This document shows positions 44,832-50,057 of a stretch of 64,000 bases of DNA, in pieces. The stretch covers positions 1 to 64,000 of the forward strand of contig JAGTRW010000023.1 in NCBI GenBank assembly GCA_018262095.1, read 5' to 3'. The stretch comes from Pseudomonadota bacterium (GTDB lineage: Bacteria > Pseudomonadota > Gammaproteobacteria > Burkholderiales > Rhodocyclaceae). The notes below the pieces were generated by a model that saw only the letters and a list, made by a program, of their open reading frames with translations, did not search any database and was not told the DNA's origin. Position 1 is the first letter of the stretch; each line of letters opens with the position of its first letter. Position numbers and translations under genes: made by a program.

Positions 44832-44929
44832 AGATGGCTCACGCCGTCTCCCGCTTCATCTCCCTGAGCGGGCGCCTTGCATCTAGGCAAGGCATTTTGC
44901 CCCCGGTTTGCGCCGGGGGCTTTTTATTT
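44832..44929 (+). ncRNA. Candidate sRNA with four consecutive hairpins and a Rho-independent terminator
   Basis: AGATGGC-tcac-GCCGTCT; CCCGCT-tcatctccctg-AGCGGG; GCCTTGC-atctag-GCAAGGC; GCCCCCGG-tttgcg-CCGGGGGC-TTTTTATTT. Confidence 0.5.
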
Positions 44930-46935: not shown

Positions 46936-48264
46936 TCAGTTGTTGATGAAGCGCGACTCGAGGAAACGCGTCGCGTTGTCCAGATCGCTGTAGATCTTGC
47001 TGCCGTGAAGTGCCGAAACGAACTTCCGCCAGTTGATATCGGGCTCAGCCAGACGAAAGCCGTAGAGTCCGCGGGCCTCGCTTCTCTTTTCACGCAGGAT
47101 GAAGGCGTTGACGTGCGAAACGTCGGCGTGCCCCAACTTGATAGTCGCTTCGCACCAGGTATTGAGCGGCAAGACCCCGTGGGCAAGCGCCTGGAACCCG
47201 TCGGAAGAAACCTCGATTACCTTGATCGATATCTTGCCCTGCTTGCCGTCGACCGAGGTGTAGGTGATTCGCCCCGGGCACTTCACCGAGAAACGCTCGT
47301 GACGGCGTAACGGGCTATCTTCTGGACTGACTGACGGCGTCGGCAACACCGCACGATACTCGGGCAGATCGTAGATGGTGTGGAGCAAGGCTTTTTTTCG
47401 CTCGCTCAAATTCTCGAAGGTATGCGTCCGAACGTTGAAAAAATAGTCGATCAATGCAGGCGTCAGCACCGGGTCGTTGGTGGTGAAAAAACGCCGGCTC
47501 GGAAAATGAATATTGGGTAACTTGATCTCAGTGAAATACGCGTAGAGGTTGCGGCGCGCGGGCTTCGACGCATAATGCTCGCGCATGACATTGACCGCTT
47601 CCTTGAGGTCAAGGGTAGCACCGACGGCGGGCGCACCATTGACGAAATCGTAGTTTTCGACGACGTTCGCCGTCAGTCGCTGGAAAAACAACAGCGACTC
47701 GTACATCTCGATATGGCTCGGATTAACGGCGATGACCAGGTGCCGGGTGTCGAAAAACGTCGTGCAGTATTCATACATGAACTTCATCAGCGGAAACAGG
47801 ATGGTACCGCCCGTTTTGCGGAACTTGCGGTTGATGGCCAGCGCAGACACCTCGGCGATCAAGCCTTCCTTTTTGCGCACCGACGTCAGGTCGAAGATCT
47901 GCTGCAGCGGGAAACCCAGTGCGCTTTCGCGGATCAGCGAGATGGTCCCGACTACCTCGCCGTCGTACTTGGCACAGAGCGTCGTCGTGGTCGGCAGCGC
48001 GTGGTAGATGGTCACCCGCATCCCCGAGGGATCGGGTTTCATGAAGCCGCTATCGACGTAGGCGTCGTGCAGCACCGAGAAGCAGGCCTCAAGCTCCTCT
48101 TTTGTTTCGGCGATCTTGAGCACCAGCCGCTCGCTCGGTGCCGGGTCGCAGTTTGCAAACGAGCGAAATACCTCGAAACGCTTCTTGCGCGGCAGCCAGG
48201 AGATCAGCTTGCGGGCCGATTCACGCACCAGTTTTCGCAATCGTAAGCGAAGCCTCTTGAGCAC
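46936..48264 (-). CDS. FeeM-like N-acyltransferase (GNAT fold) fused to a PilZ domain
   Basis: AEVSALAINRKFRKTGGTILFPLMKFMYEYC (acyltransferase-like); RRHERFSVKCPGRITY...VIEVSSDGFQAL PilZ motif. Confidence 0.75.
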   Translation of the reverse strand: MLKRLRLRLRKLVRESARKLISWLPRKKRFEVFRSFANCDPAPSERLVLKIAETKEELEACFSVLHDAYVDSGFMKPDPSGMRVTIYHALPTTTTLCAKYDGEVVGTISLIRESALGFPLQQIFDLTSVRKKEGLIAEVSALAINRKFRKTGGTILFPLMKFMYEYCTTFFDTRHLVIAVNPSHIEMYESLLFFQRLTANVVENYDFVNGAPAVGATLDLKEAVNVMREHYASKPARRNLYAYFTEIKLPNIHFPSRRFFTTNDPVLTPALIDYFFNVRTHTFENLSERKKALLHTIYDLPEYRAVLPTPSVSPEDSPLRRHERFSVKCPGRITYTSVDGKQGKISIKVIEVSSDGFQALAHGVLPLNTWCEATIKLGHADVSHVNAFILREKRSEARGLYGFRLAEPDINWRKFVSALHGSKIYSDLDNATRFLESRFINN

Positions 48265-48389: not shown

Positions 48390-48500
48390 CTATTTTTCAG
48401 GGTCAGAAACGCTCGGACCGCCAAAATATGACGATAGAAAATACGGAACCACGACGATAACGACCGTGAAAGCAATCGTCGCATATAGAGTTGAATTCAT
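48390..48500 (-). CDS. Microprotein 1, single TM (MNSTLYATIAFTVVIVVVPYFLSSYFGGPSVSDPEK)
   Basis: 36-aa ORF read manually; strong RBS AAAGGAG; TM segment interrupted by Pro. Confidence 0.6.
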   Translation of the reverse strand: MNSTLYATIAFTVVIVVVPYFLSSYFGGPSVSDPEK

Positions 48501-49168
48501 GAATGTCTCCTTTCGTAATGCGAGTGATGTTTCAATTTCACGAAAAGAAGCTTATCGAAACACGTGCCACAACGCTGTTGCCACTGTGATTGGCTTGCGT
48601 GCCATGCTGTAACGTGGTGGAACTTTTGGCACCATATGCCAAGCGGCACAATACGCCTTCAAGAAAAGGCAATGCGGCCGCCAACTGCATTAAAAAAAGG
48701 GCTGGGGGGTGTGGGGAACACCGAGCCAGCCCGCAACCCTAGTGCAAGGAGGGCTTGCAAAAGGCCACGTCCAATCTAATTCAGCCTGCACTAAACACCA
48801 ATACCGTGTTCCATGTAGTTCCCGCCGAGCGCGAGGCTTCATGCCAAAGGATCCACCACCACCAGGCGTTCTCAGACAAAGCAGCGACGAAGGGACAAGA
48901 CACCGGCCCAACGCTTAGACAGCGCTTCCGACCTTACCCGCGACGACCTTCGAAGAAGGTCGCAAAGAACCGCTTATTGCGGCAGTGAGCAGTTGCTGTG
49001 ACAGTTTGAACACATCACAAAATCCGAAAGCAAGCTCGGCCTGACTGCCCGGACTGCTGCGGAAGGACGCGCGACACGAAAAACCTGTGCGCCTCAAACT
49101 GGCAAGAATTGAAATCGTGCCAGAAACAACAAATTTACAGTTCTACAACTGGCGAAACGAGTTGCCGC

Positions 49169-49291
49169 TTAATTCCAGTCGTATTGCTCAAGTTTCATAT
49201 CGTTTTTCTTGAGGTACACTTCCACGATTCGGGGCAGAAGGATGAGAACAAACAAGAAGGCGACGATCGCAAAGTCGTTTAATAATTTCAT
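49169..49291 (-). CDS. Microprotein 2, single TM (MKLLNDFAIVAFLFVLILLPRIVEVYLKKNDMKLEQYDWN)
   Basis: 40-aa ORF; RBS GAAAGGAAAT; same TM-Pro pattern. Confidence 0.6.
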   Translation of the reverse strand: MKLLNDFAIVAFLFVLILLPRIVEVYLKKNDMKLEQYDWN

Positions 49292-49321
49292 GGTTATTTC
49301 CTTTCGGCGTGATTTGAACTA

Positions 49322-49441
49322 TTAGGCGGATTCGAGATTGTTCTTTGAACTGGCAGACAGATCGATCAGCAGGGCAATTGCCTGGGGCAGCACGGCAACG
49401 ATGACAATCGAAACGGCAAAAATCGCTTGAGCTAAAACCAT
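49322..49441 (-). CDS. Microprotein 3, single TM (MVLAQAIFAVSIVIVAVLPQAIALLIDLSASSKNNLESA)
   Basis: 39-aa ORF; leader ATTACGGAAGG; 30 bp upstream of microprotein 2. Confidence 0.6.
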   Translation of the reverse strand: MVLAQAIFAVSIVIVAVLPQAIALLIDLSASSKNNLESA

Positions 49442-49616
49442 TGTGAATACCTTCCGTAATGTGAAACACAAATTCATCTAACGGAAATGATTCTAACGAT
49501 TGGAGCGTTTTTTCTCAGTTGCGTCATTGATTCGGTTTGGTATCAGTTTGTGACACGAGTCATCAGCCCCTGTGTCCATGCGTTAGTCAGGCATTGCTGA
49601 TCAACGAAGGAAAACC

Positions 49617-50057
49617 GTGAAAAAAGCCGTGCTGGCAATCGCTCTTGTTGCCGCCCTCAGTACTCCCGCGCTGGCCGCCGAGGTGGGCGTTTCCGTGACC
49701 ATCGGCCAACCAGGCTTCTATGGTCGGCTCGACATCGGCGGTTTTCCGCCGCCGCAACTCATCTACGACAGCCCGCGCTACATTGGGCGAGTTCCCCCTG
49801 GCCGCCCACCAGTCTATCTGCGCGTCCCGCCCGGCCATATCAAGCACTGGGACAAACACTGCCGGGAGTACAACGCCTGTGGCGAGCCTGTTTTCTTTGT
49901 CAAGGACGACTGGTACCACCGCGAATACGCCCCGCGTTATCAGGACCGTCGAGGCGATTACCGTGATAACGGCACGGGGCCGCATGACTATCGCCAAGAC
50001 GAAAGGCATGACAATCGCGAGCACGACAAAGGTCACGGACACGGCCGCGACCATTAG
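49617..50057 (+). CDS. Secreted protein with charged His/Asp/Arg-rich C-terminus
   Basis: Signal peptide MKKAVLAIALVAALSTPALAA; C-terminal YRQDERHDNREHDKGHGHGRDH. Confidence 0.8.
   Translation: MKKAVLAIALVAALSTPALAAEVGVSVTIGQPGFYGRLDIGGFPPPQLIYDSPRYIGRVPPGRPPVYLRVPPGHIKHWDKHCREYNACGEPVFFVKDDWYHREYAPRYQDRRGDYRDNGTGPHDYRQDERHDNREHDKGHGHGRDH

Follow-up and report, generated by a model that had tools for sequence, protein, structure and literature searches.

Three short open reading frames lie on the minus strand of the window, the whole 64,000-nucleotide stretch of Rhodocyclaceae DNA that was analyzed, between a gene for an FeeM-type N-acyl amino acid synthase and a gene for a small secreted protein. 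The original prediction had placed ORFs of 36, 40, and 39 amino acids here, and all three are present where it put them, together with putative signals for their expression:

46936-48264, minus strand: FeeM-type N-acyl amino acid synthase gene (PF21926, E 7e-44; locus L034)
48390..48500, minus strand: ORF1, MNSTLYATIAFTVVIVVVPYFLSSYFGGPSVSDPEK, 36 amino acids, ATG start, one hydrophobic segment, Pro19
48509..48547, minus strand: predicted 5' untranslated region (UTR) hairpin of ORF1, in which CUUUUCGU pairs with ACGAAAGG and covers part of the ribosome-binding site (MFE -9.7, z -2.8)
48549..48613, minus strand: predicted ORF1 promoter, with GTTACA (48613-48608), GGCAC (48603-48599), CAACAG (48580-48575), and the -10 element TAAGCT (48554-48549)
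48692..48732, minus strand: probable intrinsic terminator, GGGCTGG...CCAGCCC-T7
49169..49291, minus strand: ORF2, MKLLNDFAIVAFLFVLILLPRIVEVYLKKNDMKLEQYDWN, 40 amino acids, ATG start, Pro20, second gene of an ORF3-ORF2 pair
49322..49441, minus strand: ORF3, MVLAQAIFAVSIVIVAVLPQAIALLIDLSASSKNNLESA, 39 amino acids, ATG start, Pro19
49451..49487, minus strand: predicted 5' UTR hairpin of ORF3, in which UUUCCGU pairs with ACGGAA(G) (MFE -9.5, z -1.8)
49490..49554, minus strand: predicted ORF3-ORF2 promoter, with GTCACA (49554-49549), GATAC, CAACTG (49521-49516), and the -10 element TAGAAT (49495-49490)
49617-50057, plus strand: small secreted-protein gene

The proline falls at residue 19 in ORF1 and ORF3 and at residue 20 in ORF2, and the A-x-x-A-F motif said to be common to the first two copies reads ATIAF in ORF1 and AIVAF in ORF2. 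The leaders are related as proposed (ATTACGAAAGG for ORF1, CGAAAGGA for ORF2, and ATTACGGAAGG for ORF3), and 30 bp do separate ORF3 from ORF2. Cysteine is absent from all three products, and the tail of ORF2 contains EQYDWN. The C-terminal extension of the synthase, earlier called PilZ, had no Pfam match, and a second copy of the synthase, 71% identical, is found on another contig (G000:C49). Elsewhere in the window, an anti-hemB small RNA lies beside hemB (44847-44927, plus strand; RF02837, 75 bits), and no RstA-type promoter was seen upstream of it when the sequence was read.

The three ORFs are genuine genes that are absent from the gene-finder calls. Early protein profiles contained ORF1 to ORF3 themselves, and therefore a new profile was built from 26 relatives, all from other genomes, and run against the 1,560 six-frame segments of the window. 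The three top-ranked segments were exactly ORF1 (40.4 bits, E 1.3e-11), ORF2 (30.1 bits, E 2.2e-8), and ORF3 (14.1 bits, E 0.0023), the last being a weak family member; top scores in 20 shuffled windows reached 9.9 bits. The nearest relative of ORF1 is MESTIYATVAFTVVIVVVPQLLAAYV... in genome G010 (dN/dS 0.15), and ORF3 resembles MNLTQALYAVLIIAMALIPQLMTLLI (G017) and MHLSQSLLAVLFIAIAALPQALAVVI (G026). When ORF2 was used in tblastn across 60 related genomes the matches were weak, and on inspection those in G017, G023, and G006 were complete ORFs of 36 to 41 amino acids with similar leaders of the GAAAGGA type. Searches of ORF1 to ORF3 against Pfam, NCBIfam, PADLOC, and PDB gave no convincing match, and the plasmid records searched gave none. 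The TM_PetC, ETRAMP, and Csx18 hits among them were weak hydrophobic matches.

The claim of a small paralogous family was correct but far too modest. Iterated profiles, together with a scan through every fetched locus, have so far recovered 33 distinct members in 11 of the 29 genomes searched in the genus (the Propionivibrio-like Rhodocyclaceae of GTDB), while samples of 250 genomes of the family and 350 of the order yielded no convincing member outside it. Members are dispersed and often in tandem, with arrays at L059, L066, L045, and L144 and with two members approximately 670 nucleotides apart at L044; the source genome carries a fourth, MNFARLVFVIFVVGLALVPSLITSYIHRTDEVEPEFEHDYR, at C18:55559. 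One proline is invariant across the 33 members and anchors a core of the form hydrophobic-P-x-x-[LIV]-x-x-[YF]-[LFV]. The tails are variable; in a subset, the last residues form an acidic motif (EEEYIPDGR, EECYDGR, EHDYR, or EEEYDYR). A Shine-Dalgarno-like leader precedes nearly all members, and no constant neighbor gene was seen.

The family evolves under purifying selection. Pairwise Nei-Gojobori counts gave a pooled pS of 0.59 and a pN of 0.19, and individual pairs had dN/dS values of about 0.05 to 0.33; thus, the frames are coding. Conservation of the frames in relatives, as the original prediction had envisaged it, therefore holds for the family and fails by position, as the genes are missing from the orthologous FeeM/PilZ loci. 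A conserved orthologous locus was accordingly rejected, and the family is instead dispersed. The three genes belong to a genus-limited family of microproteins of approximately 35 amino acids, with no match in Pfam or NCBIfam.

ORF1 and ORF3 share a 65-bp compound promoter, and ORF2 comes after ORF3. Alignment of 21 upstream regions gave the consensus GTTACA-N4-GgcAC-nn-AA ... TCAA ... CAACAG-N20-TAnAnT, located about 50 nucleotides upstream of the start codon at near-constant spacing, with 17 nucleotides between CAACAG and a CGATA-like -10 region for almost every lead gene and with the ribosome site and start codon trailing at near-constant distance. Scored with a weight matrix from other genomes only, the ORF1 and ORF3-ORF2 promoters ranked first and second in the window at 56.9 and 55.4 bits, and the third-ranked site reached 7.0 bits. 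Each has one mismatch to a 21-position pattern that, with up to 3 mismatches allowed, finds 1 to 16 sites per genome in 25 of the 29 genus genomes; the reversed pattern, used as a control, matched twice in all 29. The source genome has 12 sites, which are associated with microproteins, small proteins of 68 to 79 amino acids (L139), a TPR-like protein (L137), the position behind rstB, three copies of a small RNA (L140, L141, and L143), and two loci without a clear product (L136 and L138). The architecture reads as an OmpR-family direct repeat (GTTACA-N4-GTnAC, 10-bp period) followed by a CAACAG box and a sigma70-like -10 element. An extracytoplasmic function (ECF) sigma factor promoter, with CAACAG as -35 and CGATA as -10, was the first candidate and was abandoned when a direct repeat was recognized farther upstream and TAnAnT emerged as the -10.

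The promoter is physically linked to rstAB. Its best conserved copies are found in two places, the 3' end of a histidine kinase gene and the sequence preceding a small RNA, and the order rstA, rstB, site, 58- to 65-amino-acid protein, site, small RNA is found in most genus genomes examined; rstB followed by a site and then a small protein or small RNA recurs in other Rhodocyclaceae genera. In the source genome the small RNA is not beside the small protein, and its three copies lie elsewhere. The best NCBIfam model for the response regulator was RstA (295 bits; next, OmpR at 215) and that for the kinase was RstB (360 bits; next, CpxA at 169). Both scores fall below the equivalog cutoffs (330 and 478 bits, respectively), and we therefore call the proteins RstA-like and RstB-like; the RstA-like protein is encoded at L201:3234-3947. 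As the best conserved promoter copies follow rstB, phosphorylated RstA is the likely activator of the microprotein genes. The RstA box of E. coli, TACATNTNGTTACA, consists of tandem TACA sites and tolerates imperfect repeats (PMC4117788). The ORF1 and ORF3 sites match 7 of its 12 specified bases, and other sites of the same motif match up to 11 of 12. RstAB of E. coli operates in an acid setting (PMC11135836), and that precedent alone suggests acid as the signal. More broadly, an RstAB-linked promoter favors a role for the microproteins in a stress response. We found no paper naming both Propionivibrio and RstA, and RstAB has apparently not been studied in this group.

The leaders probably fold over their own ribosome sites. 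In general, UUUCGU would pair with ACGAAA of the ribosome site, and the pairing is kept through changes on both sides in ORF3 (UUCCGU/ACGGAA) and in the G017 member (CCCUUCGU/ACGAAGGG). Across 21 leaders of 42 nucleotides, stability was -8.2 versus -5.35 kcal/mol for dinucleotide shuffles, and 0 of 300 shuffles were as stable. In the comparison with RNA thermometers, whose leaders sequester the Shine-Dalgarno sequence, pairing was specific to its register (72.5% versus 41 to 47%, fixed alignment); covariation in that alignment did not exceed that of shuffled columns, and no structure emerged when RNAalifold was run on the plain leader alignment. Thus, we regard the hairpin as probable but short of proof. 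Downstream, the terminator at 48692..48732 was read from the sequence and the fold of the stretch; the pattern scanner, which permits loops of 3 to 8 only, does not list it. It would probably end the ORF3-ORF2 transcript ahead of the ORF1 promoter. The interval from the end of ORF2 to this strong terminator (48692-49168, minus strand) is approximately 470 nucleotides and may be a long 3' UTR or an unrecognised RNA; an Rfam search of the ORF region returned no family.

Other small products accompany the same promoter. A multicopy CU-rich small RNA (..GTTGCTTCAGCGTCCCCCGCTGGCAATGTTTGACCCTCCCTGACCCATCGCAA..), which carries a terminator of its own, immediately follows the best of the promoter copies that lie downstream of rstB (loci L105:1600, L140, L141, L143, L148-L151, and L155-L200). 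It matched no Rfam family, its match to RF02837 falling below the gathering score. There are 46 such stretches in GTDB genomes, and the organism names in a public scan for this RNA point to Propionivibrio, "Ca. Propionivibrio aalborgensis," and MAGs labeled Accumulibacter. In the interval from rstB to the small RNA, most genus genomes encode the conserved hydrophobic protein of 58 to 65 amino acids (L201:5583-5756 and orthologues; FPxAEGvgIFVGvvAWdLL...W), for which no family scored above cutoff. A second class of hydrophobic small proteins, 68 to 101 amino acids in length (L139, L146, L153, and L154), has the same promoter and a predicted leader hairpin, TTTCGTCAGGTGAAAT..ATTTCAC, with about 20 to 30 additional nucleotides before the ribosome site.

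How the microproteins might act can be framed as a model. A signal sensed by RstB would lead RstA to activate the microprotein genes, and two promoters of one regulon would transcribe ORF3 and ORF2 jointly and ORF1 by itself. The short hairpin at the mRNA start, covering the ribosome site, may limit translation or stabilize the transcript. The peptide would then insert in the membrane as a single helix, bent where the invariant proline falls, and would tune a larger protein such as a sensor kinase, pump, or enzyme by docking onto its membrane portion; different tails would set different partners. On balance, we favor the explanation that the genes encode a lineage-specific paralogous family of probable single-pass inner-membrane microproteins, controlled by RstA and acting in the manner of AcrZ or MgrB on inner-membrane partners. 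The genes, the family, the selection on it, the common promoter, and the linkage of that promoter to rstAB are shown by the analysis, and activation by RstA, the role of the hairpin, insertion in the membrane, and docking on a partner are inferences.

The main competing explanation is that these are membrane-active stress or toxin-like peptides, in the style of the type I toxins TisB and DinQ, whose translation a leader would block tightly and which would lower the membrane potential once made. Short hydrophobic products, multiple dispersed and tandem intergenic copies, and a predicted hairpin over the ribosome site would all be expected of such peptides. The conserved core Pro-x-x-L-x-x-Y and the acidic tails that recur (such as EEEYIPDGR and EHDYR), which are under purifying selection, suggest a specific partner, however, and the region matched no family in Rfam; we regard toxicity as an unlikely function, though one to be taken seriously. 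Far less probable is that the ORFs are spurious and that only a promoter and an untranslated RNA are conserved. The loci are indeed not syntenic, and the genes are smaller than the normal annotation size, but codon-level selection, the ranking by a profile built from other genomes, and the near-constant placement of ribosome site and start codon behind the promoters largely refute that idea.

The genes may instead answer to one or more other OmpR-family regulators, with the sites near rstB among their targets. Many OmpR-family regulators rely on direct repeats with a 10-bp period, and the sites in the window diverge from the E. coli RstA box. Across genera, however, the best sites remain physically linked to rstB, and we think control by a different regulator improbable.

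In Propionivibrio-like Rhodocyclaceae, the RstAB response might act largely through tiny products, namely, the multicopy CU-rich small RNA and rapidly diversifying proline-bent membrane microproteins, each directed by its tail to a different membrane partner, an idea that we offer tentatively and hold to be rather less probable than its converse. Were it true, it would amount to a regulatory layer of interchangeable microprotein adaptors. Small membrane proteins have mostly been found singly, in model enterobacteria. In the present case one promoter type accompanies an expanded family, and thus the full set can be named from the sequence, the regulator can be tested with one mutant, and partners can be sought. 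The regulon escapes gene finders, since the majority of its products either fall short of 100 amino acids or are noncoding. The group that carries it includes sludge bacteria and MAGs from termite gut.

Known systems offer partial parallels. AcrZ of E. coli, a small protein of the inner membrane, consists of one helix with a proline bend inside it and regulates a larger membrane protein, as is proposed for the microproteins; its Pro16 bend is required for AcrB binding (PMC7267776). Unlike AcrZ, the microproteins have many paralogues per genome, an RstAB-linked promoter, and other tails, and homology to it was not detectable with Pfam, NCBIfam, or PDB. MgrB of E. coli, a protein of 47 amino acids that tunes PhoQ, is a small membrane protein in a two-component regulon (PMC8404706, PMC10576120). 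It has periplasmic cysteines, whereas ORF1 to ORF3 have none and match no MgrB family, and it is a single feedback gene, whereas the microproteins are dispersed and multicopy. The small RNA resembles the double-hairpin and anti-hemB small RNAs of Burkholderia in being short and multicopy with a CU-rich stretch (PMC5688073) and in its RF02837 match; that match is subthreshold, however, and the RNA here is linked to rstAB. Finally, the enterobacterial RstA/RstB regulon, with targets such as asr and csgD, shares an RstA-like regulator, an RstB-like kinase, and a tandem direct repeat of 10-bp period (PMC4117788, PMC11135836). The regulon proposed here differs in that its sites in the window have diverged from the E. 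coli box, an extra CAACAG box is present, and the targets would be microproteins and a CU-rich small RNA.
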